64,000 bases of DNA from Verrucomicrobiaceae bacterium UBA2429. Lineage in GTDB: Bacteria > Verrucomicrobiota > Verrucomicrobiia > Verrucomicrobiales > Verrucomicrobiaceae. The stretch spans positions 1 through 64,000 of the forward strand of contig DDQZ01000066.1 of the NCBI GenBank assembly GCA_002343505.1, in the 5' to 3' direction. Below are positions 2,429-17,038 of the stretch, in pieces (position 1 is the stretch's first letter; each line of letters begins with the position of its first letter). Under the pieces are notes generated by a model. It made no database searches. It had not been told where the DNA came from and saw only the letters and a list, made by a program, of their open reading frames with translations. Made by a program: the position numbers and the translations under genes.

Positions 2429-4543
2429 TCAGCGCGCGGAGACGGACTTGGCGGCGCTGCCGTTGAGCAGTTTTTCCAGAGCCTCGTCGGGGGTGACGCC
2501 TTTTTTGAGCGCCTGCTCGTACTCGGCCTTGGCCTTGTCCCACTGGGGCGGGTCCCAGGTGGCGTAGAGGACGGCGAGGTTGAAGTGCGCCTCGCCATAA
2601 GCGGGGTCAATGGCAAGGGCGGTTTTGAACTCGCGCTCGGCGCGGTCGAGCAGGTTGAGCTTGGTGGAGATGATGCCGAGGTAGTGGCGGGCGCGGGCGT
2701 TGTTCGGGGCTTTGGCGAGGGATTTTTCAAAGGAGGCCATGGAGTCCTGCCACTGCTGCTGTTTGAAATGGGTGACGCCGAGATGGAAGGAGGCAAGATC
2801 GTGGCCGGGATCAATGGCGAGGCATTTTTTCAGCGCGGCGGCCGCGGCGTCGAGCTTGTTTTCCCGCTGGCGGGCGTAGCCGAGGCCGACGAGGGCGGTG
2901 GTGTTTTGCGGGTCGGCGCGCAGGGCGTCCTCGAAGAGTCCGGCGGCCTCGGCGAAGCGCTGCGCGGCAAAGGCCTCGTTGGCGCTGTTGAGCAGGGTGT
3001 CCACCGGGCTTGCGCCGGGTTTGGCGGCACCGTCGTTTTTGGGGATGCGGGCGATGAGGGTGCCCTGGATGCCGCCATCCTGGCCGAGCATCTCGCGCAC
3101 GGCGGGGTCGGTGAAGAGTTTTTCCTCATCCGGGGTGAGGGCCAGGCGGTTGGTCTCGAGTTCCTGCACCTGCTCGAGAAGATCCCTGGAGACTCCCTCC
3201 ATCTTTTTGAGTTCGGCCAGGACGAGTTCCTTGGCCTGCTGCTGGCGGTACTGGCCGCGGAGCTGGCGCATGATGATCTCGCGCAGCAGTTCGTTTTCCC
3301 TGGCCAGCTCGGGGGTGAGCATGGCGCCGCCTTCGGAGGAGAGGTTTTTCAGTTGGAGGGTGAGGTCCGCCACCTGGGTCTGGTAGGCGGCGCTTTCCTG
3401 GCGCAGGGTGGCGATCTCCCCCTGCAGGGTGGCGACCTGGGAGCGCAGGGCGGCCACTTCCTGGTCCTTGCGGGAAACGTCGGCCTTCAGGGTGACGATC
3501 TGCTTTTGCGCGCTTTCCAGGTCGCTGCGCAGGCGCTCGTTTTCCGCGATGAGCTTCTTGACCTCCTCGGCGGCGGGGTTGGCTTTTTTGAGCGATTCGA
3601 TCTCGGCGGTCATGCCGAGGTTCTGGGTTTTGAGCTTGTCGCGCTCGGCGACGGCGGCATCCCGCGCGGAGGCGGCGCTGTCACGCTCTGTCATGGCGGT
3701 GTCGCGCTCCTTGACGGCGGCGTCGCGCTCGGCCAGGGCCTTGTTGCGCTCGGTCTCCAGCTCGGAGATGCGCAGGGAGGCGTCGGCGAGTTTTTGCGAG
3801 GCTTCCCTGGCGGCCAGCTCCGCGCCGTTGAGGCGCTGGCTGACTTTTCGATACTCGACCTCGATGGCGAGTTTTTCCTTGGTGAGGGCGTCGAGCTCTG
3901 ACGCCTTGGCCCTGCCGGCGGCCACCTCGACCTGCATGGCCTGGATGGCTGCCTCAAGGGTGGCGGACTTCCGCTCCAGCTCGGTCATGCGCTGGCGCGC
4001 GGTGGTGATCTCGCCGGAGGCCCATTGGTACCACTGCTGCCATTTGCCGAGGTCCACCTGCATCTGGCTGTTTTGAGTTTCCAGCTCGGTCATGCGCTGG
4101 CGCCAGGTCTGCTCCCACTGCGCCAGCGCCTCGGTGAGGCTGGGCAACGGACCACTTGTGCCCGGCTGGGCTGGTCCCGCTTGTGGAATGACAAGTCCTG
4201 CGGCGGGAGCTGCCTGGGCCGGCGCGGCGGGCTGAATGAGACCGGCCTGCACGCGGTTCATGGCCTTTTCCACGAGGCTCCGCCGTGTGGCGAGCATGCC
4301 CGGCTGCCATTCGGGATGCGCGCGGGCGACTCCGTCAAAAATCTCCGCCATTTGCTGGTAGAGTGAAAAGGCGCCGTTCAGATTTCCCTCGGACTCCATT
4401 TTTTCCGCGTCCTTGAGCATCATGTAGCCGCGAAAATATTCGTCGCCCGGATCGTCGGCGGCCTTCACCGGCAGGGCGGTGAGGCACATGGCCAGCAGGC
4501 GCAAACCGGCCAGGAGGGCTGGATGGGAGGTGTGGAATTTCAT
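2429..4543 (-). CDS. Secreted coiled-coil protein with C-terminal TPR repeats
   Basis: The 704-residue protein starts with a signal peptide (about residues 1-28, ending near PVKAADD). A Pro/Ala-rich linker at about 105-140 is followed by a long coiled coil at about 150-420, shown by heptad-like runs such as ERNKALAERDAAVKERD. A tetratricopeptide block covers about 520-690 (repeats with LVGLGYARQRENKLDAAAAAL, SFHLGVTHFKQQQWQDSMAS, ARHYLGIISTKLNLLDRAER, AHFNLAVLYA). It is probably a periplasmic scaffold protein; partners are unknown. It is the first gene of the unit that continues with mutY. The intergenic space to the divergent symporter (4544-4724) must hold promoters for both, but I cannot point to a convincing one. 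Confidence 0.85.
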   Translation of the reverse strand: MKFHTSHPALLAGLRLLAMCLTALPVKAADDPGDEYFRGYMMLKDAEKMESEGNLNGAFSLYQQMAEIFDGVARAHPEWQPGMLATRRSLVEKAMNRVQAGLIQPAAPAQAAPAAGLVIPQAGPAQPGTSGPLPSLTEALAQWEQTWRQRMTELETQNSQMQVDLGKWQQWYQWASGEITTARQRMTELERKSATLEAAIQAMQVEVAAGRAKASELDALTKEKLAIEVEYRKVSQRLNGAELAAREASQKLADASLRISELETERNKALAERDAAVKERDTAMTERDSAASARDAAVAERDKLKTQNLGMTAEIESLKKANPAAEEVKKLIAENERLRSDLESAQKQIVTLKADVSRKDQEVAALRSQVATLQGEIATLRQESAAYQTQVADLTLQLKNLSSEGGAMLTPELARENELLREIIMRQLRGQYRQQQAKELVLAELKKMEGVSRDLLEQVQELETNRLALTPDEEKLFTDPAVREMLGQDGGIQGTLIARIPKNDGAAKPGASPVDTLLNSANEAFAAQRFAEAAGLFEDALRADPQNTTALVGLGYARQRENKLDAAAAALKKCLAIDPGHDLASFHLGVTHFKQQQWQDSMASFEKSLAKAPNNARARHYLGIISTKLNLLDRAEREFKTALAIDPAYGEAHFNLAVLYATWDPPQWDKAKAEYEQALKKGVTPDEALEKLLNGSAAKSVSAR

Positions 4544-7230: not shown

Positions 7231-8367
7231 ATGAGCCCGCTGACCCGCCGCCGCTTCCTCGCCACCAGCACCTGCGCCCTGCTGGCGCGCCCCGCCCCGG
7301 CGGTGGAGACGATCCCCGCCTGGGCGGCAAAGCTGGAGGGCATCCGCGCCCGCTACGACCTGCCCGCGCTCGGCGCGGCCATCGTCACGGCGGAGGGCTG
7401 CCAAAGCCTGGCGGTGACCGGAGTGCGGAAGAAGGACGCCGAGACCCCGGTGACAACCGCCGACCTTTGGCATCTCGGCTCGAATACGAAGGCGATGACC
7501 GCCACACTCGCCGCCATCGCGGTGGAGGAAGGCAAACTGCGGTGGGACAGCACGCTGGGGGAGCTTTTCCCCAGGCAGCGGGACTTGAAGAAGTCCCCGC
7601 TCGCCAAGGCCACCCTCACCCACCTGCTCAGCCACTGGTCCGGCCTGCCGCCCAACGCCCAGTGGGGCATGCTCGCGCTGGCCGGCGGCGGCAGGCCCGG
7701 CAGCGAGCGCGCCCAGCGCGCCCTGGCGCTGGAGCTGGCGGCGCGCACGGCGGACCTGCCCGCGCCGGGGGAGCGGCACGAGTACTCGAACTTCGGTTAC
7801 GTGCTCGCCGGCCACATGCTGGAGGAGGTGTGGCGCGCCCCGTGGGAGGAGCTGATGCGCCGGCGCCTCTTTGCCCCGCTGGGCATCCAGAACGCGGGCT
7901 TCGGCGGCACCGGCACGCCCGGGAAACTGGACCAGCCCTGGCCGCACAACGGCAAAGGCGAGCCCATGCCGGGGAACGGTCCCCTGGTGGACAACCCCCC
8001 CGTGCTCGGCCCCGCGGGCACCGTCCACATGGCGCTGGCGGACTGGGGCCTCTTCCTCGCCGAGCACCTGGCCGGGCGCGCGGGCAGGGGCCGGCTTTTG
8101 AAGACCGCCGCCTACGAGCACCTGCACACCGCGGCGCAGGCCGGGGAGAACTACGCGCTCGGCTGGCTGGCCGTGGAGCGCCCGTGGGGAGGCCGGGTGC
8201 TGAACCACGCCGGCAGCAACACCATGAACCGCAGCGTCACCTGGCTGGCCCCGGAGAAGGGATTCGGCGTGCTCGCCTGCGCCAACACCGGCGCCGAGAC
8301 CGCCTCCAAGGCCCTCGATGATGTGTCCGGCCTGCTCATCCAGGCGCACCGCCAGGGCGGCGCGTGA
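7231..8367 (+). CDS. Serine hydrolase, class C beta-lactamase fold
   Basis: The 378-residue protein has an N-terminal RRRFLATSTCALLARP signal typical of TAT export. The catalytic SxxK motif is SNTK at about residues 84-87 (WHLGSNTKAMTATL), the YxN motif is in HEYSNFGYVLAGHML, and HAG in LNHAGSNTMNRS stands in for the KTG/HxG box. Relatives are penicillin-binding-protein-like esterases, D-aminopeptidases and AmpC-like enzymes. The substrate cannot be assigned, and beta-lactam resistance should not be assumed. The 3' end overlaps the opposing rtcA reading frame by 217 nt. Confidence 0.88.
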   Translation: MSPLTRRRFLATSTCALLARPAPAVETIPAWAAKLEGIRARYDLPALGAAIVTAEGCQSLAVTGVRKKDAETPVTTADLWHLGSNTKAMTATLAAIAVEEGKLRWDSTLGELFPRQRDLKKSPLAKATLTHLLSHWSGLPPNAQWGMLALAGGGRPGSERAQRALALELAARTADLPAPGERHEYSNFGYVLAGHMLEEVWRAPWEELMRRRLFAPLGIQNAGFGGTGTPGKLDQPWPHNGKGEPMPGNGPLVDNPPVLGPAGTVHMALADWGLFLAEHLAGRAGRGRLLKTAAYEHLHTAAQAGENYALGWLAVERPWGGRVLNHAGSNTMNRSVTWLAPEKGFGVLACANTGAETASKALDDVSGLLIQAHRQGGA

Positions 8368-9401
8368 GGCTGCGGCACCGCACCCCGCGCACTCCCCGGC
8401 GAGATTTCACTCACCTCGAACACCACCGGCAGAAACTGCTCGATGAGCGCCATGTTCGTGCGTGTGTGGTCGGTGATGGACAGCGTGTGAAACACACCGC
8501 CGCCTGCAAGGGCCATGGGCAGCAGCAACTGATCCGCCAGATGCATGCCGACGGGTGCCGTCGAGGCCAGATAGCCTCGCAGGCCCTTCGCCGCGCCGGT
8601 GGCGACGGCTTCGGCGGACTTGCCCATCTGCGCGATGCCGGTGCTGATCTCGCAAACGTTCTCATATTGAACGCCAAGCATGATGGCATTGCCTGGGCCG
8701 ATGCTCTCTGGCGCAGACCGAAAGTCGATCTGATGAACAGGCCACTGCAGGATGGCTGCCGCAGTCGAAATCTCACGATCCACGATGTCGCGATTGAGAT
8801 GCGCATGTCGCACCAACCCAAAGCAAGCTCCAGAACCTCCACGCTCCGTCAGCTCCAGCTTCTTCCACTTCTTCATCGGCCAAATCTTTGCGCACAGCAC
8901 CCCGCCGCCAGCCTGCATGAAGCCAGGACGCTCCAAATTCATTTCTGCGGCAACTCCCATGCTCTGAATCACGGGCAGGAAGCATTGTTCGATGAACTCG
9001 AAGGGCGGAGCCATCGGGTTGTGCGTGCCGCCTTCGATGCGCAGCGTGCTGGAGGTCTCGGCATGCAGCAGCGCGGGCAAAAGCGTCTGCAAAACAAGCG
9101 TGGTGCTGCCGCCGGAGCCGATGGCGAAGCGGTAGTCGCCCGCAGCGATCTTGCCGGGTGTGAAAACGAGTTCGGTGGAGCCCATTTCGGCTCCTTCGAC
9201 CTCCGCGCCACAAACCTCCGCCGCGGCCTTCACGCAGGTGAGGTGCTGACGCATCAGCCCGGGCTTCGGTCGCTTCCCACGAATGTTCGTCATGCGAAAC
9301 GCCCGCCCCGTGACCAGTGCCAGCGACAACGACGACCGCAGCAACTGCCCGCCGCCGGATTCGCCGGAGATGAAGAGGAAGGAGGTGTTGGTTTTGCTCA
9401 T
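8151..9401 (-). CDS. rtcA: RNA 3'-terminal phosphate cyclase with run-on C-terminus
   Basis: RtcA converts RNA 3'-phosphate ends to 2',3'-cyclic phosphates using ATP. Visible signatures are GESGGGQLLRSSLSLA (14-29), RGKRPKPGLMRQH (41-53), GSGGSTTLVLQTLLPALL (95-112), GGTHNP (124-129), and the adenylylated histidine His312 in TDHTRTNMALIEQFLP. Homologues are about 340 residues, and the homologous part ends near residue 334 (VVFEVSEIS), around plus-strand position 8400. The frame then continues about 82 residues antisense through the 3' end of the convergent serine hydrolase. That extension looks like non-native sequence and suggests the native stop was lost. It is the last gene of the RNA-repair island, beyond two opposite-strand genes. 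Confidence 0.93.
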   Translation of the reverse strand: MSKTNTSFLFISGESGGGQLLRSSLSLALVTGRAFRMTNIRGKRPKPGLMRQHLTCVKAAAEVCGAEVEGAEMGSTELVFTPGKIAAGDYRFAIGSGGSTTLVLQTLLPALLHAETSSTLRIEGGTHNPMAPPFEFIEQCFLPVIQSMGVAAEMNLERPGFMQAGGGVLCAKIWPMKKWKKLELTERGGSGACFGLVRHAHLNRDIVDREISTAAAILQWPVHQIDFRSAPESIGPGNAIMLGVQYENVCEISTGIAQMGKSAEAVATGAAKGLRGYLASTAPVGMHLADQLLLPMALAGGGVFHTLSITDHTRTNMALIEQFLPVVFEVSEISPGSARGAVPQPHAPPWRCAWMSRPDTSSRALEAVSAPVLAQASTPNPFSGASQVTLRFMVLLPAWFSTRPPHGRSTASQPSA

Positions 9402-9435: not shown

Positions 9436-9627
9436 ATGTCAGCCGGACTTGCCAGCATTGAGGAAAAGCGCGCCGCAGATCGCCAGCGCGTCGCCGAATA
9501 CCTCGAAAGCCAGCGCCCCTTCACCGATGCGGAGTGGGCGGCCCAATTGCGGTTGTTTGAGGCTGTCGGATGCGATACGACCTCGGCACTGCCTTTTTGG
9601 AAACGTTGGTTTTCACGATGGAACTGA
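9436..9627 (+). CDS. Small hypothetical protein, first of an antisense pair
   Basis: The 63-residue protein is rich in charged and helical residues (SIEEKRAADRQRVAEYLESQ, then FTDAEWAAQLRLFEAVG) and ends in FWKRWFSRWN. It starts 34 nt from the divergent rtcA start. Its last 10 nt overlap the next plus-strand gene, the typical geometry of a translationally coupled pair. I do not recognise a family. Coding is supported by its amino-acid makeup and the overlap, not by homology. It is opposite in direction to the RNA-repair genes on both sides, so their transcript would run antisense to it. Confidence 0.55.
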   Translation: MSAGLASIEEKRAADRQRVAEYLESQRPFTDAEWAAQLRLFEAVGCDTTSALPFWKRWFSRWN

Positions 9628-10124
9628 AGCCTGCCAGTCTTCCACCTGGATTTGGTCAAACACGAGGCTCCGAGCACGAAGTCTGGCTTTCCGCCGACAA
9701 ACTGCGCGTGATCAAAGCAACGCACGCTGGCGAGTTTGGACGCAAATTCGGCCCGGATCGCTTCGCGACGCTGGAGGAGTATCTGGAGCGCATTCGTCTG
9801 TTGAACGAGGAATTCGCCGTCAGATGGCAAATCGAGGGCGTGTGCGGCGAGGGCCGTTCGAGACGTCTCATCACCTCCCAGCCCGCCTATCACGGCAAGC
9901 CTCCCACTTTGGCGGAAATCCGCCAGTTCATGTTGGAGCGTGGTTTTGAGTTTCATCGCACTCGGTTTGGGGATGCTTGGTTTCGAAAAGAGGATCGCAT
10001 GCTGGTTTCGGATGCGGAGCCGAAGAACGCGGTGATGACGGAGAATGGAATCATGCCTTTTGATTTCATCATTGCCCGGCCCGCATCGAGTTTGCTGAAG
10101 GCCGCTGACATCATGCGCCCATGA
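9618..10124 (+). CDS. Hypothetical protein, possibly protein-kinase-like fold
   Basis: The ATG at 9618 overlaps the end of the preceding small gene and gives 168 residues. The N-terminal half has EHEVWLSADKLRVIKATHAGEFGR, which resembles the beta strands and lysine of a kinase N-lobe. Later come SQPAYHGKPPTLAEIRQFML and DRMLVSDAEPKNAVMTENGI followed by MPFDFI, which resembles the D-x4-N and DF catalytic elements of polyvalent protein-kinase domains in phage proteins. That assignment is inference from pattern only. The gene stops 4 nt before the stop of the convergent CCGVDA gene, leaving no room for a terminator. Confidence 0.6.
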   Translation: MELKPASLPPGFGQTRGSEHEVWLSADKLRVIKATHAGEFGRKFGPDRFATLEEYLERIRLLNEEFAVRWQIEGVCGEGRSRRLITSQPAYHGKPPTLAEIRQFMLERGFEFHRTRFGDAWFRKEDRMLVSDAEPKNAVMTENGIMPFDFIIARPASSLLKAADIMRP

Positions 10125-10128
10125 CGTC

Positions 10129-10491
10129 TCAATGCTTCTGCCAGAGGTGTTGAGGAGTATCCACAGCGGCCTGCAGCGATGCCCGGAGGTTTTCAAGGAA
10201 CGCTTTCGCTTCCTCACTGCGATCCCAATGCTCTCCAAAACCATTTTGATCCGAAAACACCGGCCCTTGGTGCGCCTCCACTGACATGATGATCACATCT
10301 AGCTGGGCAAGTGCCTTCATGGCTTTCTCCACGCCAAACTCCATCATGCCGTCGATGGCGCGCTGGACATCGAGATTGAGTGCATCGACTCCACAACAGC
10401 CCATGACGCAAGTGTCCTCATAGTAGTGCAGCACGGCCATGAGCTCTTCCGGAACAGAGAGGTTGAGAGTGGGTTTTAAAAACAAGGACAT
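10129..10491 (-). CDS. Small CCGVDA-motif protein downstream of rtcB
   Basis: The 120-residue protein contains HYYEDTCVMGCCGVDALNLD, with three cysteines in seven residues. The rest is helical (DVQRAIDGMMEFGVEKAMKA, SEEAKAFLENLRASLQAAVD). The CCGVDA motif resembles what I recall of DUF6331 proteins, but I cannot confirm it. It starts 27 nt after the rtcB stop and is very probably cotranscribed with rtcB. The cysteine cluster could bind metal. Its function in RNA repair, if any, is unknown. Confidence 0.65.
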   Translation of the reverse strand: MSLFLKPTLNLSVPEELMAVLHYYEDTCVMGCCGVDALNLDVQRAIDGMMEFGVEKAMKALAQLDVIIMSVEAHQGPVFSDQNGFGEHWDRSEEAKAFLENLRASLQAAVDTPQHLWQKH

Positions 10492-10518: not shown

Positions 10519-12009
10519 TCAATCATCCGCCTCCGCCGCGTCTTTGATGACGAAGCGGGCTTTGAGTTTGCAGACCTGCTGGGCGAGGCCGGCGGCTTCG
10601 ACGCTGTGGAGGACTTCTTTGAAGTCTTTGTAGGCGTTTGGGGCTTCGTCGATGGGGTATTGGCGGGCGTTGTAGAGGATGTCGTGGGTTTCGAAGTCGG
10701 CGTTGACCTCCTGCTGGTTGAGATTGCGGGCGGCGGCTTTGCGGCCCATGCAGCGGCCGGCACCGTGATTGACGCTGTAGCAGCTTTTCACGGCATCGGG
10801 CTTCGCGACCATGACGACGGAGCCGTCGCGTGGATTTCCGGGCAGCAGGATGGGGTGGCCGGTTTCGGCGAAGGGCGTGTCTTTGAGTGCGTGGTGGCCG
10901 CCGGGGAAGGCACGCGTGGCACCTTTGCGGTGAACCCACGCGAGTTGGTTATCGACGACTTCCTGACGCGCGATGTTGTGGCTGATGAAGTAAACGAGCT
11001 GGCCTTTCGTGCCGGGAAGCACTTCTTGGAAGGCCTCCAGCACGAGCGCATTGATGAGCAGGTGGTTCACGGTGGCGAAGTTCGCTCCGAGCGCCATGTC
11101 GTCGAGATAGGCGTCCGCCTCGGGTGTGCCGAGCGGGGCATAGACGAGCTGTTTGTCATCGGCGGGAAACGGCAGGCCCCAGGTGCGGAAGAAGCCTTCC
11201 AGCGCTTTGAACTGACGCTGCGCGAGGATGTTCCCAAAGCCGCGCGATCCGCAGTGGCTCAGAAACGCGACGTGATTGTCCCGCAGGCCGAAAACTTCGG
11301 CGGTGCGGCGCATCGCGGGGTCATCGGCGAGCTGCACGACCTCGCACTCACCGAAGTGGTTGCCACCCCCGTAGGAGCCGAGCTGGGTCATCTTGTTTTC
11401 AAAGCCGGGGAAGCCGTTGAAGGCGCGCATCTTGTCCAGGCGCTCGTGGAGCGTGGAGACGTTTCCATCGTGGCCGAGGTGGGCGCTGTCTTCACAACGC
11501 TGCGCCCACTCGGGCGGGATGCCGAGGGCGTCGCACACGCTGCGGCTCGCGCCTTCGGTGCATACCTGCACGCCAAGATCGGCGGACACGCGGCGGGATT
11601 TTTTCGCCTCGCGCTGACCACGGCCCGCGTCCGTCGGCGTGCGGGCCACGATAGCTTCGATCAACCGGCGGCGGATGGTTTTGTCGATGATCTCATCGGC
11701 AGGGATGTCCATCTGGAGCAGGGACATAGAGCACTTGATGTCCACGCCGACCGGCCCCGGATAAATGTGCGTCGGCGAGACCATCACGCAGCCCACCGGC
11801 GCTCCGTAACCGCTGTGCGCGTCGGGATTGAGCACGAGATCGGTCACGCCCGGCGCGGAACGCGAGTTGAGCGCCTGCTCGATGCAGGACGGGTCAAAGC
11901 CAGCACGGATCGCCTCCGTCCCGATGACGGCGATGGGTTTTCCGGCGTTGTTACGGGCTGGGAGGATGGCTTCAGCTTCGCCGGTGATGTGGAAGGGGGA
12001 GGTGGACAT
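10519..12009 (-). CDS. rtcB: RNA-splicing ligase RtcB
   Basis: RtcB joins RNA 2',3'-cyclic-phosphate or 3'-phosphate ends to 5'-OH ends using GTP and Mn2+. From the ATG at 12009 the protein has 496 residues. Motifs in order are NPDAHSGYGAPVGCV (61-75), GPVGVDIKC with the metal-ligand Cys93, GSYGGGNHFGE, SHCGSRGFG, YFISHNIARQE, and VNHGAGRCMGRKAA with His415 as the guanylylated histidine. The frame is also open from an ATG at 12045 that overlaps the stop of the HEPN-like gene (TAATG). That start would add 12 residues (MHQSNTPFLHSS) resembling a repeat-derived sequence. No archease gene is nearby. It sits in the sigma-54-controlled repair unit. Confidence 0.96.
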   Translation of the reverse strand: MSTSPFHITGEAEAILPARNNAGKPIAVIGTEAIRAGFDPSCIEQALNSRSAPGVTDLVLNPDAHSGYGAPVGCVMVSPTHIYPGPVGVDIKCSMSLLQMDIPADEIIDKTIRRRLIEAIVARTPTDAGRGQREAKKSRRVSADLGVQVCTEGASRSVCDALGIPPEWAQRCEDSAHLGHDGNVSTLHERLDKMRAFNGFPGFENKMTQLGSYGGGNHFGECEVVQLADDPAMRRTAEVFGLRDNHVAFLSHCGSRGFGNILAQRQFKALEGFFRTWGLPFPADDKQLVYAPLGTPEADAYLDDMALGANFATVNHLLINALVLEAFQEVLPGTKGQLVYFISHNIARQEVVDNQLAWVHRKGATRAFPGGHHALKDTPFAETGHPILLPGNPRDGSVVMVAKPDAVKSCYSVNHGAGRCMGRKAAARNLNQQEVNADFETHDILYNARQYPIDEAPNAYKDFKEVLHSVEAAGLAQQVCKLKARFVIKDAAEADD

Positions 12010-12044: not shown

Positions 12045-12758
12045 TTAAGGAATTCCGATCAGGTCTAGGAGGTCGAAAAACGAGTCGGATACTGCGGGTG
12101 ATTGGTGGCCTGAGTGCTCTCGGCTCAGAGCGATAGCGGTTTTGTGAAGCGGAATGAACAATGGGTCCGCTGAGTTGATCTCGATCACAGTGCGTTTGCC
12201 TTGGCTTGCCAGTAGTCGAATCTCGAAAACTCTCTGCGCTTCTAAAAATTTGGCAAAGATTCGATCCTCGTATCTCTTCCCAATCTTCTTTTGGATCGAG
12301 AAGCCGCTCCAAAACAAATTCATAACGCGGCCAGTGGCTTCGACAAAAAGGGCAGCGAGATCGACCGCATCCTCTGCCTCTTCAGCGCTCGGCTTGCGGT
12401 ATTGATGTTCCATCAAGTTCCTGGGCGAGCTGATTTTCCTCAGGATTCGTGGTGCAAGAAGGCCGACTTGCTCAAGCAGTTTGAGCTGTTGATTGATTTT
12501 CAGCTTCTGACCATCAAAACCAAGAGCACCAATCGCATACTTAATCTGTGAGCGAACCGCTCTCTGCGCGTTGGACACAGCGTCCACGTAGTTTGGAGGG
12601 TCTCCGGTCAGGGCATTTTCAGCCATATATAGGAACTCCGCAGGGGGGATGTCCATCTTGTAGGTCAAAGCACCGCCATCTCCCATCTCGACGTATGCAT
12701 TGCTTTGTTTGAGCTTGATGCTTGCCGCGAATGTTCGGATTGTTTCGATTGTGTTCAT
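12045..12758 (-). CDS. HEPN-like protein with RNX3H motif, candidate RNase
   Basis: The open frame extends to 12962, but its first 68 codons read through the adjacent Y RNA, so the ATG at 12758 is chosen (237 residues). Helical segments EFLYMAENALTG and YVDAVSNAQRAVRSQIKYAI are followed by SSPRNLMEHQY, where Arg113-Asn114-X3-His118 matches the HEPN ribonuclease motif RNX3H. A further helix has EEAEDAVDLAALFVEATGRV. The C-terminal part is unfamiliar. HEPN membership is inferred from the motif and helix pattern. It lies between the Y RNA array and rtcB, 35 nt upstream of the rtcB start used here. It may cut RNA, or it may be an inactive binding protein. Confidence 0.6.
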   Translation of the reverse strand: MNTIETIRTFAASIKLKQSNAYVEMGDGGALTYKMDIPPAEFLYMAENALTGDPPNYVDAVSNAQRAVRSQIKYAIGALGFDGQKLKINQQLKLLEQVGLLAPRILRKISSPRNLMEHQYRKPSAEEAEDAVDLAALFVEATGRVMNLFWSGFSIQKKIGKRYEDRIFAKFLEAQRVFEIRLLASQGKRTVIEINSADPLFIPLHKTAIALSREHSGHQSPAVSDSFFDLLDLIGIP

Positions 12759-12780
12759 GATGGTGGGCTTGGGAAAAGGT

Positions 12781-12924
12781 GGTGACGACAAGGATTGATG
12801 AAACGTGTTACTCCGCTCTACCACTGAGCTACGGTCCCGAAGAAAATGAAAAGGTGGGACCGGAGGGATTCGAACCCCCGACCTGAGGCTCCGTAAGCAT
12901 GTAGTTCCATCGGCATTCGTCACC
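12781..12924 (-). ncRNA. Y RNA 1 with complete permuted tRNA module
   Basis: Read 5'-3' on the minus strand, the ends GGTGACGA and TCGTCACC pair perfectly to form the Ro-binding stem, which carries GACGAATG on the 5' strand and CCTTGTC on the 3' strand. Inside, a T arm (GGGGG, loop TTCGAAT, CCCTC) comes first. It is followed by CGGTCCC, a 17-nt loop beginning ACC, then GGGACCG, which is a perfect 7-bp acceptor stem. Last is a D arm (GCTC, AGTGGTA, GAGC). The tRNA halves are therefore in 3'-half-then-5'-half order, as in bacterial YrlA-type Y RNAs. Length is 144 nt. It ends 22 nt before the HEPN-like start codon. Confidence 0.85.
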
Positions 12925-12953
12925 ATTTGAGGTGATGGGTTTTGAAAAGAGAA

Positions 12954-13045
12954 TGGCGACAAGGGTGGAGAGACTTCTCCGCATCGCTGCGGGGCGAGAT
13001 TTGAACTCGCTGGTTACCAGATGTAGTCCGCTCCGGCATTCGCCA
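12954..13045 (-). ncRNA. Y RNA 2, reduced tRNA-like module
   Basis: The ends TGGCGA and TCGCCA pair, with GGCGAATG on the 5' strand and CCCTTGTC on the 3' strand. The internal module has a perfect 5-bp T arm (GCGAG, loop TTCAAAT, CTCGC) and a short acceptor-like stem (CCGCA, GCGA tetraloop, TGCGG). In place of the D arm there is a tiny hairpin, GGAGA-AGTC-TCTCC. Length is about 92 nt. It shares the ACTACAT word after the stem with all other copies. Confidence 0.75.
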
Positions 13046-13075
13046 AAGGGTGGGATGATGATTGGATGTGGTGAC

Positions 13076-13169
13076 GGCGACAAGGGGTGTGTGACGGCCT
13101 TCATTTTTCAAAAGGTGCTGGTTATCGGCCAGCTAGTGTTATGGTGATGTAGTCACAGGAGCATTCGCC
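13076..13169 (-). ncRNA. Y RNA 3, strongly diverged module
   Basis: The terminal GGCGA and TCGCC pair and keep the GGCGAATG and CCCCTTGTC words. The module has an arm GCTGG, 7-nt loop CCGATAA, CCAGC in the T-arm position, and a weak CCTT/AAGG hairpin where acceptor and D arm would be. The T-loop consensus is lost. Length is about 94 nt. It is recognised mainly by its conserved ends and its place in the array. Confidence 0.65.
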
Positions 13170-13203
13170 ATCATTTGAGAAAGGGTTGATGTGAAGTGGT
13201 GAC

Positions 13204-13319
13204 GGCGACAAGGAGGTCGAGAAACGTTTCAATTGCTCTACCGACTGAGCTACTGCCGAAGCAGGCAGGGATCGAACCTGCGACCGATTGATCAGATGTA
13301 GTTCCTCAGGGCATTCGCC
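13204..13319 (-). ncRNA. Y RNA 4 with compact permuted tRNA module
   Basis: The ends GGCGA and TCGCC pair, with GGCGAATG and CCTTGTC conserved. The T arm is GCAGG, loop TTCGATC, CCTGC. The acceptor-like stem CTGC-TTCG-GCAG is capped by a stable UUCG tetraloop. The D arm GCTC-AGTCGGTA-GAGC is canonical. The order is again T arm, acceptor, D arm, so it is not a normal tRNA gene. Length is 116 nt. It is the clearest tRNA mimic together with Y RNA 1. Confidence 0.82.
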
Positions 13320-13344
13320 ATCGTTTGAGAATGGGTTGGGAGAT

Positions 13345-13416
13345 GGAGCCTGGTGACAAGGATTGGAGAGACGTGACAGTTGAAAATGTAGTCCGCTCCA
13401 GCATTCACCAGGCTCC
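13345..13416 (-). ncRNA. Y RNA 5, stem-only form without tRNA module
   Basis: A strong terminal stem, GGAGCCTGGTGA pairing with TCACCAGGCTCC (12 bp), carries the variant word GGTGAATG and the conserved CCTTGTC. The interior is only about 25 nt (GGACTACATTTTCAACTGTC and a little more) with no T or D arm. It starts 10 nt after the Ro60 gene stop, so it is first in the array. Length is 72 nt. It may be a pure Ro-binding RNA or a processing element. Confidence 0.65.
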
Positions 13417-13426
13417 AAAGGGTTGG

Positions 13427-14995
13427 TTAGAGCGGGGTTTTCTCGATCTCGCCGACCCAGTGGTCGCCGGTGAGTTCGCCGCTCGCGAAAGCGGCGATCA
13501 CCTGGAACACGGAGTCGGAGAAACCGCCGATGTTGAGGATGTCCTCGCGTTCCTGAGCCTGCGTGGTCGTGTAAGGCTGGATGTCGAGGCACACGAGACG
13601 GGCTTTTGGATTCCGCTGCTTGAACTTCATCCATTCGCTCATTGTGCGCGTCGCGGAGCCACCAAAGCGGCCGTGCTGAGGCGTGTCCATCCACGACTCG
13701 TTGTCCGAGACGTAGATCACCAGATCGGCCTGCACTTTGCGGGCATTCAGATCAATGAGCACGGCGCTGCAGTTCGTCCCGCCGCAAGGCAGTGACGCGA
13801 GCTTTTGCGCGTTCGTCATCACGGAATCACGCGGATTCAGCTTCACACGAACGACATTCGTCTCAAACGGCAGCACCTCGGCATCGCGGTTCTGGCGCAG
13901 GAAGGCGGCGGCGACGAGCGCGGCGACATCAATGCAGCGCACCTTGCTCGTGGCGCCCTTGCGAACACCGGTCACAGGCGAGTGCATGGAGCCGGACACG
14001 TCTGGAGCCACGATCACTTTCCCAGCCACCACGGGCACGTTGGAGATGGCGATCTCCATCGCATCCTGCAGCGCTTCCTTCACCTCGTGCGGCACCTCGG
14101 CACCGACGTTGTGATAGGCGGCCATGAGCTGATACGGGAACACTTTGGCACGACGCACCTGCTCCTCGCTGCGCAGACGGCTGGCGATGAGACGGGTGAT
14201 CTCCTTCACGGAGAACACGCCATGACGGGCAAAGGTGTTCAGGTTCATCCGCGTCATCTGCCATGGGGCACGACGGGCGATGGCCTGCCACTGCTCCGCC
14301 GTCAAAGGCAGCGCGGTGAGCATCTGGAAGGGCACCTCAGGCGGATTTCCCGCAGGATCGGTCTTCCAGGCCTCGAACTCACGCACGACACGCGGCAGCG
14401 CCGACGCCTCGTGCTTTCGCCCGATGAGATAACCGTAGAGCGCCTCGCGGGCCTTCGTGGCCGGACGCGGGTGCACCATTTTCACGATGTCCGCCAGCGA
14501 TGGCGACTGACCCACGTCCGCGCGGAAGATGGCCTCGTCCGAGCGGGTCTCGAACCAGCGGCGCACGAGGCGCTTTGGCAGAGATCCGAGGGACTTCCGA
14601 CCCGTCACGCCGGAGCGGAGGATCTGGACGAAATTCCGCAGCATCTTGGCATCGTCGATCACGCGATCAAAGATCAGCTCCAGGCGCTCGGCATCGCGGG
14701 CGGCCAGCACGGCGCAAAGCAGCGCTGGCACGTCCTTCATAAAGCCCTTCTGGCGGCAGTGAAGCGCCGTGCGGGCAATGAAATCGGTCGGGACCTTCTC
14801 ACACAGCTTCAGCACTTTCTGCAGCTGGTCCTCCGCCGTGGCGTAGTAGGTGCGGTTCAGGCAACCCGTGGCCGCAAACTGCGCTAGCGCCTGACGCGGA
14901 GCGAGACTGTAGGCACGGCCTCCGGCCTCATTGAAGGTATTCGCCTTCGGAGCGAGGGCTCCGGCGATGGATTGGAAGAGAGTTTTGTTAGCCAT
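13427..14995 (-). CDS. rsr: Ro60/Rsr protein (TROVE domain plus vWA domain)
   Basis: Ro60 proteins form a HEAT-like ring that binds Y RNAs and misfolded RNA 3' ends. The frame is open to 15331, but the ATG at 14995 (MANKTLFQSIAG) lies just downstream of the sigma-54 promoter and gives 522 residues, the usual size. Residues about 20-320 are the TROVE domain (ALAQFAATGCLNRTYYATAE, VLAARDAERLELIFDRVI). A vWA domain follows, with the MIDAS motif Asp332-x-Ser-x-Ser (APDVSGSMHS), GGTNCS near 407 and YVSDNES near 430. It heads the repair unit, followed after 10 nt by the Y RNA array. Confidence 0.95.
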   Translation of the reverse strand: MANKTLFQSIAGALAPKANTFNEAGGRAYSLAPRQALAQFAATGCLNRTYYATAEDQLQKVLKLCEKVPTDFIARTALHCRQKGFMKDVPALLCAVLAARDAERLELIFDRVIDDAKMLRNFVQILRSGVTGRKSLGSLPKRLVRRWFETRSDEAIFRADVGQSPSLADIVKMVHPRPATKAREALYGYLIGRKHEASALPRVVREFEAWKTDPAGNPPEVPFQMLTALPLTAEQWQAIARRAPWQMTRMNLNTFARHGVFSVKEITRLIASRLRSEEQVRRAKVFPYQLMAAYHNVGAEVPHEVKEALQDAMEIAISNVPVVAGKVIVAPDVSGSMHSPVTGVRKGATSKVRCIDVAALVAAAFLRQNRDAEVLPFETNVVRVKLNPRDSVMTNAQKLASLPCGGTNCSAVLIDLNARKVQADLVIYVSDNESWMDTPQHGRFGGSATRTMSEWMKFKQRNPKARLVCLDIQPYTTTQAQEREDILNIGGFSDSVFQVIAAFASGELTGDHWVGEIEKTPL

Positions 14996-15034: not shown

Positions 15035-15050
15035 TGCTAGCCGCGTGCCA
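15035..15050 (-). promoter_or_regulatory. Sigma-54 (-24/-12) promoter for rsr-Y RNA-rtcB unit
   Basis: On the minus strand TGGCACGCGGCTAGCA matches the consensus TGGCAC-N5-TTGCW at all but one position, with GG and GC correctly spaced. It lies about 40 nt upstream of the rsr start codon. Just upstream is an inverted repeat, CGTGCCA-GGTTT-TGGCACG, whose inner arm overlaps the -24 element. RtcR, encoded divergently, is the obvious activator. Confidence 0.75.
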
Positions 15051-15463: not shown

Positions 15464-17038
15464 ATGAAACCCACCGTCACCTTCGGCTTCCTCGGCTCCA
15501 CACTCGACCGCGCTCAGGGCGCGGATCGGTGGTCGAAATGGCGGCCCACCGTCGCGATGTGCCAGCAGGAGGATTTGCTCATTTCGCGGCTGGAATTGCT
15601 CGTGGAGCCGAAGTTTGCGGATCTGGCAAAAAGCGTGGTCGCGGACATCGCGAAGGTTTCGCCGGAGACGGAGGTGGTGGTGCATGAGTTTGCGCTGAAG
15701 GACCCGTGGGACTTTCAGGAGGTGTATGAGCGGCTCTACGACTTCGTGCGCGGCTACGACTTCCAGCCGGAGAAGGAGGACTACCTCATCCACCTGACCA
15801 CCGGCACGCATGTGGCGCAGATTTGCTGGTTTCTGCTCAATGAGGCGAACTTCATCCCGGCGCGGCTGCTGCAAACCTCGCCCTCACGCGAGGGTGGACG
15901 CGATGCGCAGGCCTGCGGGCGCTACGAGATCATCGACATCGACCTCTCAAAGTATGACCGGCTCTCCACACGCTTCGCGCAGGAGCAGGAGCGCACGTTG
16001 GATTTCCTGAAAAGCGGTATCGCCACGAAGAGCAAGGGCTTCAACAAACTCATCGAGCAGATCGAACTAGTCGCCGTGAACTCGAAAGCGCCGATCCTCA
16101 TCATGGGACCAACCGGCGCGGGCAAATCGATGCTCGCAGGCCGCATCTACGACCTGCGACGCTCGCGAGCCGGATTGAGCGGTCGATTTGTCGAAGTGAA
16201 CTGCGCCACGCTGCGTGGCGATCAGGCGATGTCGGCGCTGTTTGGCCACAAACGCGGCTCCTTCACCGGTGCGCAGTCGGACCGGCCCGGACTGCTCAAA
16301 GAAGCCGACAAAGGCCTCATCTTCCTCGATGAGATCGGCGAACTCGGTCTCGACGAGCAGGCGATGCTGCTGCGCGCGCTCGAAGACAAAACCTTCCTGC
16401 CGCTGGGCAGCGACAAGGCCGTGCAGAGCGACTTTCAGCTCATCGCGGGCACGAATCGCGATCTGCGGGCACAAGTCGTCGCGGGCAAATTCCGCGATGA
16501 TTTGCTCGCGCGGATCAATCTGTGGACCTTCACGCTGCCAAGCCTCGCGGAGCGTCGCGAGGACATCGCCGCGAACCTCGATTTCGAACTCGAGCGATAC
16601 GCCAAGGCGCATCGCCGCCAGGTGCGCATGAACAAGGAGGCGCGTGAGGCGTTTCTGAAGTTCGCGAAAGGCCCGGAGGCCAAATGGAGCGCGAATTTCC
16701 GCGATTTGAATGCGGCGGTGACGCGCATGGCCACGCTGGCTCCGAAAGGGCGCATCACGGTGGAGTGCGTGGAGAGCGAGATCGGGCGGTTGCGGGAGAG
16801 TTGGAGGTCGGAAGTGAAAAGTGAGATGTCAGAGGTGGTGCCGGAGGACCTTGATCCGTTTGACCGCGTGCAGCTCGAATTTGTGATCAAGACATGCCGG
16901 GAGTGCAAGACGCTGTCGGACGCGGGGCGGAGGCTCTTTGCCGTGTCGCGGACGAAGCGCAGCGTCACGAATGACGCGGACCGTTTGAAGAAGTATTTGA
17001 AGCGCTTTGGACTGGACTGGGAAAAGGTCAGCGGCTGA
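15464..17038 (+). CDS. rtcR: RtcR, sigma-54 dependent activator of the RNA-repair genes
   Basis: The 524-residue protein has an N-terminal RtcR/CARF-type sensory domain (1-180; ligand-pocket-like LIHLTTGTHVAQICWF at 108-123). CARF domains typically sense oligonucleotide or cyclic-phosphate RNA signals. The central AAA+ domain has Walker A GPTGAGKS (215-222), the sigma-54 contact loop GSFTGA (265-270, usual form GAFTGA) and Walker B LIFLDE (285-290). The C-terminus carries a helix-turn-helix (TLSDAGRRLFAVSRTKRS). It is divergent from the promoter it presumably controls. GGGAGA upstream of the ATG is a reasonable ribosome binding site. It converges on ftsY with 16 nt between stops. Confidence 0.95.
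   Translation: MKPTVTFGFLGSTLDRAQGADRWSKWRPTVAMCQQEDLLISRLELLVEPKFADLAKSVVADIAKVSPETEVVVHEFALKDPWDFQEVYERLYDFVRGYDFQPEKEDYLIHLTTGTHVAQICWFLLNEANFIPARLLQTSPSREGGRDAQACGRYEIIDIDLSKYDRLSTRFAQEQERTLDFLKSGIATKSKGFNKLIEQIELVAVNSKAPILIMGPTGAGKSMLAGRIYDLRRSRAGLSGRFVEVNCATLRGDQAMSALFGHKRGSFTGAQSDRPGLLKEADKGLIFLDEIGELGLDEQAMLLRALEDKTFLPLGSDKAVQSDFQLIAGTNRDLRAQVVAGKFRDDLLARINLWTFTLPSLAERREDIAANLDFELERYAKAHRRQVRMNKEAREAFLKFAKGPEAKWSANFRDLNAAVTRMATLAPKGRITVECVESEIGRLRESWRSEVKSEMSEVVPEDLDPFDRVQLEFVIKTCRECKTLSDAGRRLFAVSRTKRSVTNDADRLKKYLKRFGLDWEKVSG

Follow-up and report, generated by a model that had tools for sequence, protein, structure and literature searches.

A predicted array of five Y RNA genes with differing heads in an RtcR/sigma54-type RNA-repair locus of a Verrucomicrobiaceae bacterium

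Introduction

Salmonella carries an rsr-yrlBA-rtcBA operon, which brings together Ro60, Y RNAs, RtcB and RtcA under the control of RtcR (PMC7790460). In D. radiodurans a Y RNA tethers Rsr to PNPase, forming RYPER (PMC7790460, PMC8394870, PMC8058203), and Y RNAs carried by phages are already in print (PMC7765460). The role of Y RNAs in the bacterial RNA-repair operon is an open question according to Hughes et al. (PMC7790460). The locus described here lies in Verrucomicrobiaceae bacterium UBA2429, within a window of 64,000 nucleotides (the whole stretch of DNA that was analysed). It has the same components as the Salmonella operon but contains five Y RNA units of at least three head classes and an extra ORF before rtcB, and its first unit has no match to the Rfam YrlB model. 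The known members of the family, YrlA and YrlB, are free RNAs. Chen 2014 reportedly attributes a tRNA-like domain to "at least one Y RNA in each species", a wording by which the presence of multiple Y RNAs per genome would already be known.

Results

Organization of the array and of its operon

The array comprises five tandem Y RNA genes on the minus strand at window positions 12780-13417, between rsr (Ro60) and an accessory ORF preceding rtcB. Five minus-strand units with complementary ends had been predicted for this interval and are indeed present; their positions, set by the paired ends, are the following.

13344..13417 (minus): U1, 74 nt; short class with an 11-bp end stem and a small loop, without a tRNA-like head; defined by its paired ends
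13201..13322 (minus): U2, 122 nt; permuted tRNA mimic with T-arm, short acceptor hairpin and D-arm; matched by Rfam YrlA
13072..13173 (minus): U3, 102 nt; common frame, head formed by a 5-bp/7-nt hairpin with the loop CCGATAA; matched by the short-class model
12954..13045 (minus): U4, 92 nt; half tRNA mimic with GGTAA, T-arm and hairpin, without D-arm; placed by the half-mimic alignment and model
12780..12925 (minus): U5, 146 nt; complete permuted tRNA mimic, composed of T-arm, D-arm and an acceptor of 7 bp; matched by Rfam YrlA

The predicted common words, GRCGAATG or GGTGAATG, ACTACAT and CCTTGTC, occur in all five units. They belong to a shared frame in which a lower stem displays GRYGAAUG on its 5' side and CUUGUC on its 3' side, GAAUG and CUUGUC facing each other in an internal loop, and is followed by an inner stem beside ACUACAU. 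With its conserved internal-loop nucleotides in a long end stem, present in 5/5 units, this frame is a candidate Ro60-docking frame. The heads differ: U1 has none, U2 and U5 carry complete permuted tRNA mimics, U4 a half mimic consisting of a D-loop-like GG plus a T-arm, and U3 a changed head. No anticodon arm was seen in the tRNA-like heads of U2, U4 and U5. The T-loop consensus was not found in the hairpin loop of U3, whose Ile-anticodon-like GATAA is a weak resemblance. Measured between stem ends the spacers are 21, 27, 26 and 28 nt, compared with the 25-34 nt claimed earlier. The proposed order from simplest to richest holds for the two ends of the array (U1, 74 nt; U5, 146 nt) but not as a monotonic series, as U2 (122 nt) is richer than U3 (102 nt) and U4 (92 nt).

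The genes that surround the array are listed below.

15464..17038 (plus): rtcR, divergent sigma54 activator; Pfam RtcR E 3.6e-81, Sigma54_activat E 1.3e-48
15036..15050 (minus): sigma54-type site TGGCACGCGGCTAGC (GG-N10-GC) upstream of rsr, recognised as a sequence pattern
13427..14995 (minus): rsr / Ro60, 522 aa; Pfam vWA_Ro60 E 9.8e-18, TROVE E 7.3e-6
12045..12758 (minus): accessory 237-aa ORF between the array and rtcB, HEPN-like by one source's name
10519..12009 (minus): rtcB RNA ligase; Pfam RtcB E 9e-100
8151..9401 (minus): rtcA RNA 3'-phosphate cyclase; Pfam RTC E 1.3e-76

The gene rtcR is thus divergent from rsr, rtcB and rtcA and a sigma54-type promoter pattern is present, the arrangement by which an RtcR-controlled RNA-repair operon is recognised. 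A pattern of this type also occurs upstream of Ro60 in 24/80 related loci, a count that has no chance control. RtcR was matched in 55 of these 80 loci and not in the other 25, and RtcB within 4 kb downstream in 57 and not in the other 23, some contigs ending too soon to decide; identity to the window RtcB is at least 60% in 40 of the 57 and 25-31% in 17. U1 starts about 10 nt past the rsr stop. Since neither sigma70-like promoter nor terminator patterns were found in 12600-13500, and a sigma54-type site lies before rsr, the predicted co-transcription of the array with the rtcB ligase is plausible. The array does lie between the Ro60 and RtcB genes, as had been stated, but its direct neighbour is the 237-aa ORF, followed by rtcB. 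This ORF has no Pfam match at E 0.001 and four homologues, one of them termed HEPN by its source. It had no match in the other 55 relatives' genomes searched, a set that does not contain the closest relative, and is thus regarded as accessory. In the closest relative the RtcB match begins 544 nt past rsr, leaving no room for such an ORF.

The interval between rtcB and rtcA holds two ORFs, at 9570-10124 (plus) and 10129-10491 (minus), one a DUF6331 gene and one an opposite-strand Kinase-PolyVal ORF, so that rtcA may sit outside the rsr-rtcB transcript. The rtcA ORF (8151-9401, minus) overlaps an opposite-strand ORF (7231-8367, plus) by about 0.2 kb, and its Pfam match extends no further than residue 330 of 416.

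Identification of the units as Y RNAs

U5 matches the Rfam YrlA family (RF02553) with 70.1 bits (E 6.7e-15), above the gathering score of 69, while U2 (58.6 bits, E 1.4e-11 to ~1e-12), although clearly homologous, and U4 (28.1 bits, E 0.0097), a truncated mimic, remain below it. Neither U1 nor U3 is matched by any Rfam Y RNA family. As a short Y RNA without a tRNA domain U1 resembles YrlB (RF02565), yet gave no match to that model up to E 5; a weak YrlB match was obtained elsewhere, with the short unit of locus L084 (35.5 bits, E 0.0016, gathering 97). Bacterial Y RNAs are recognised by an adjacent Ro60/Rsr gene and by a tRNA-like domain in at least one unit, and here rsr adjoins the array and both U5 and U2 display such a domain.

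A detector built from the motifs and the outer stem, run on the window at the loose threshold of 8, found the five units on the minus strand and, on the plus strand, one weak match (8.4); in a base-shuffled control of 20 windows of 64 kb, each read on one strand, it made 6 matches in all. The short-class covariance model, R1, was constructed from U1 and 54 short Y RNAs of other loci, 55 sequences in all, with U2-U5 outside the training set. At E 0.01 it matched all five units and nothing else in the window (E 3e-12 to 2e-6), with scores of 57.5 bits for U1 (in the training set), 46.7 for U5, 42.5 for U3, 41.5 for U2 and 36.4 for U4. The half-mimic model, R2, scored U4 at 76.1 bits (U4 in the training set). 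In the window's own genome R1 matched at the array locus only, where four units were found and U5 was lost by the pre-filter. Over 81 sources R1 gave 261 matches, by inspection all on the strand of Ro60; the model had itself been built from 55 of the units matched, and some matches are counted twice because the two locus sets overlap (for example, L057 of the 80 surveyed loci, 1.02 Mb in total, is the contig of L038 in the set of relatives). Among 194 genomes of the phylum, taken irrespective of Ro60 content and searched with stricter filters that lose weak matches, R1 at E <=1e-4 matched three, and all three have the window-type Ro60.

The proposed structures covary strongly. The short-class alignment (55 sequences: U1 and 54 out of 71 short units, after removal of near-identical congeners and of a small different-loop subtype) gave a covariation score of 0.593, compared with 0.180 when shuffled and at most 0.140 when slid, and its inner helix is 91.8% paired with both-side changes in 7 of 8 pairs. 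Similarly the half-mimic alignment (33 sequences: 29 of 46 candidates, L069, L072, L074 and the window U4) scored 0.472, compared with 0.164 when shuffled; here the T-stem, inner and outer stems all covary and one inner pair is seen as GC, CG, AU and UA. The outer stem is a selection criterion of the detector, the inner stem being independent of it. End-stem covariation among relatives, which had been proposed as a check, is therefore present in both the short and the half-mimic classes, two structured classes brought out here whose members in the window fall below any Rfam gathering score. Model matches, covariation and gene context together support the original prediction of an rsr-Y-rtcB arrangement whose Y RNAs belong to the Ro60 and RNA-repair type, and the identity of the array as a Y RNA array is, from its sequence, near certain.

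Y RNA arrays at related Ro60 loci

The survey covered the best 80 of 191 Ro60 loci by similarity to the window Ro60, and hence that Ro60 clade only; the locus titles name Verrucomicrobia, Acidobacteria, Planctomycetes and others, mostly metagenome bins. The detector found 292 units on the Ro60 strand, one of which is false (L071, inside the Ro60 gene), against none on the opposite strand at the cut-off applied. Within 2.5 kb downstream lie 242 units, and 45, in 13 of the 80 loci, are upstream of the Ro60 gene. At least one unit was detected in 77/80 loci, the exceptions being L068, L080 and L120; the detector misses units, and the covariance model adds some, for instance in L120 and L131.

Downstream counts were taken in the 73 loci with at least 1.5 kb of downstream sequence, seven shorter loci being left out. 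Two of them have no detected unit, 7 have one, 16 two, 14 three, 22 four, 8 five, 3 six and 1 seven. Five Y RNAs in a row had been considered an unusually large set, a view that these numbers contradict, with four or more units in 34/73 related loci and five or more in 12/73. The same is seen at genus level. A close Ro60 is present in 11 of 47 congeners searched, and these together with the window genome make 12 genomes with window-type Ro60, all of which carry 4-5 units in the same general order (the short unit of L046 was detected by R1 only). In Brevifollis gellanilyticus (L059/L045), a cultured relative, the array consists of four units measuring about 73, 125, 91 and 140 nt. For the other Ro60 type, whose identity to the window Ro60 is about 30%, no Y units were found in 10 loci (L028-L037) of the 17 matches listed, scanned on both strands at threshold 8 with flanks up to 1.5 kb. 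What appears to be new in the locus is its conserved, ordered mix of head classes rather than the number five. No earlier account of ordered Y RNA arrays or of rRNA-like Y RNA heads was found among the titles and abstract openings searched.

Conservation and order of the head classes

The head classes to which U1, U2, U4 and U5 belong are found again in loci whose titles name Verrucomicrobia, Acidobacteria and Planctomycetes. Within L068-L136 the nearest neighbour from another locus belongs to the unit's own class for 57/61 short units, 90/91 tRNA mimics, 5/8 D-loop-broken mimics, 2/3 normal-order units and 72/89 others, the class labels coming from simple motif rules that misfile some units (L072_76, a short unit, and several permuted mimics with an odd T-loop are labelled H). 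For U1 the 12 best matches in global alignments against the same loci are short units with a single exception; for U4 they are without exception half mimics, and for U2 and U5 permuted mimics, with top matches that differ between the two. U3 falls in no clear class in these alignments.

The order of the head classes is non-random. Among arrays of at least two units that hold a short unit (core length <=66 nt), the short unit stands first in 37/48, where 15.8 are expected and 20,000 random draws never exceeded 29. At the other end, a permuted mimic stands last in 41/50 arrays containing one plus another unit, where 22.0 are expected and no random draw exceeded 35. Eleven of the 48 arrays are exceptions to the first rule and 9 of the 50 to the second. 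When L057-L067 are omitted, short-first is seen in 27/38 arrays (13.0 expected) and mimic-last in 30/39 (16.2 expected). The short-first order also fits Salmonella, since yrlB precedes yrlA in the operon name and the Rfam model of YrlB is short (78 positions, compared with 114 for YrlA).

Duplication had been suggested as the source of the diversity of the five units; this is supported in part, as U3 alone has the look of a recent local duplicate. U2 and U3 agree almost completely in their 5' flank and are identical over a stretch that spans the 3' end, so that the simplest explanation of U3 is a duplication of the U2 frame in which the head has changed. The closest relative, L038, has a Ro60 97% identical to that of the window and a collinear array, from which, however, U3 and one spacer are missing and in which the U5 head is shorter on both arms. 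A local duplication of the U2 frame is probable, and U3 could alternatively have been lost in L038. For U1, U2, U4 and U5 the nearest matches outside the family fall in their own head class in other phyla, and their separation therefore looks old.

Additional head types in bacterial and viral loci

Other tRNA-like forms are carried by the Y frame at related loci. A normal-order tRNA-like domain with D-arm, anticodon arm and T-arm occurs at L078 4472-4592 and L081 8834-8954, and the tRNA model scores L078 4494-4569 at 47 bits. D-loop-broken mimics with an anticodon arm occur in L070, L072 and L074.

A few heads resemble 23S rRNA near helix 69, with the word AACGxxCCTAAGGTAGC: L099 9294-9501, L164 5903, L165 213 and L166 (minus strand, about 2976-3012), the last three being viral contigs. 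A Y unit of L099 aligns with positions 1909-1937 of E. coli 23S rRNA (29 nt, 90% identity, 35.4 bits); when 342 units were shuffled 20 times, no score exceeded 29.7 bits. A pattern joining the 5' Y frame to the 23S word matched in the three viral contigs, while one control pattern gave 4 matches, none with a Y unit, and the other gave none. L164 and L165 also pass the detector, which additionally requires the 3' motif and the stem; L166 has a variant closing stem, assigned by eye only. The 23S word lies close behind the TACA (ACTACA) box in 4/4 units, a placement partly imposed by the pattern for the viral three. Among the units at 38 viral Ro60 loci none had a 23S match above the shuffled range.

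Of these 38 viral loci, some of them near-duplicates, 22 have at least one detector match, up to nine in L179; 55 matches are on the Ro60 strand and one is on the opposite strand. Five to nine diverse Y RNA units, no fewer than in the window, occur in the viral contigs L179, L165, L185 and L197.

Two further candidates were rejected. As rRNA imitations the window heads gave at best 24.0 bits in BLAST against E. coli rRNA, compared with 26.8 for shuffled units. Heads resembling the sarcin-ricin loop (SRL) reduced to a 13-base match in one unit (L121 10433-10505), with a chance expectation of about 1.5, and a viral Y-frame-plus-SRL pattern gave 21 matches with no Y unit within 1.5 kb of any.

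Discussion

In the reading that we consider probable, the locus is a five-gene Y RNA array within an RtcR/sigma54-type RNA-repair operon whose heads would serve as interchangeable Ro60 adaptors. RtcR would sense damaged RNA and the operon would be switched on, after which the rsr-Y-rtcB transcript would be cut into discrete Y RNAs. All five units would compete for one Ro60 site through the common frame, and the head would set the coupling partner of Ro60, giving several alternative Ro60 particles per cell during RNA repair. U1 may act as a plain gate that merely covers Ro60, while the tRNA-like heads may bring in tRNA-binding enzymes or PNPase. A division of labour among the five heads is thus hypothesised, by analogy with RYPER of Deinococcus, where a Y RNA couples Ro60 to an effector. 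As a natural set varying chiefly in the head, within one operon and with classes found across phyla, the window units would make the role of Y RNAs directly testable.

A broader and more tentative proposal, possible though doubtful, is that the Y RNAs of bacterial Ro60 loci form a conserved panel with a set order, in which the heads are exchangeable copies of damage-prone RNAs. The RNAs copied would be whole and half tRNAs of differing topology and, for some bacteria and viral contigs, the 23S helix 69 region. This idea is favoured by the further tRNA-like and 23S-like head types and by the viral Y RNAs, which do not directly concern the window units. If true, the panel would enable a single ring protein to display or protect numerous RNA targets while RNA is being repaired.

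The main rival to the adaptor reading, which we hold to be rather unlikely, treats the heads as decoys. They would be baits for RNA-cutting enzymes, imitating the sites at which RNA is vulnerable (the elbow and the anticodon arm of tRNA, the helix 69 region of 23S rRNA), and would soak up or mark the damaging nucleases while RtcB and RtcA repair the real targets. Related heads do copy tRNA parts in various ways (permuted, half, D-loop-broken with anticodon arm, normal order), a few resemble 23S rRNA, and 18/80 Ro60 loci adjoin tRNA gene arrays; moreover, Hughes et al. propose YrlA as a possible competitive inhibitor of anticodon nuclease (PMC7790460). The same source reports that YrlA is not a substrate of that nuclease (PMC7790460). 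In the window itself, U2, U4 and U5 are without an anticodon arm and no rRNA-like head was found. Action in cis is improbable: the units would then serve the rsr/rtcB mRNA as 3' hairpins, protective or regulatory, to which Ro60 binds in an autoregulatory manner, instead of being free RNAs. The position of U1 directly behind the rsr stop with its 11-bp stem, and the failure to find promoter or terminator patterns inside the array, are compatible with such a role, which is disfavoured because YrlA and YrlB are free RNAs. Units upstream of the Ro60 gene (45/292) also speak against it, and a protective hairpin has no need of conserved tRNA-like heads.

Slightly more improbable still is an effect of dosage only, in which five near-equivalent Y RNAs would supply more Y RNA per transcript and the head differences would be drift. 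The frame is common to all units and U3 is present or missing as a whole unit between close relatives, as dosage would have it, but the head classes are ordered and recur across phyla and the T-stem of the half mimics displays compensatory changes, which argues for separate constraint on the heads. The tRNA words in U2, U4 and U5 could finally be read as degenerate tRNA genes left by a tRNA array or a mobile element. This is extremely improbable given the Ro60-docking frame on 5/5 units and their strand specificity; it is contradicted by the covariation, and ARAGORN finds no tRNA gene within the 64-kb window.

Further observations

Partial YrlA matches covering the tRNA-like part only occur elsewhere in the window's own genome, at C79:159014-159097 (29.2 bits) and C48:67366-67431 (25.6 bits).

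The Ro60-Y RNA loci that stand beside tRNA genes (L073, L078, L079, L081, L082, L086, L092, L094, L105-L108, L116, L121, L122, L125, L127 and L129) adjoin arrays of 7-34 of them. An RtcR match was obtained in 0/18 of these loci, and their titles name Acidobacteria groups in 17 cases and Polyangia in one.
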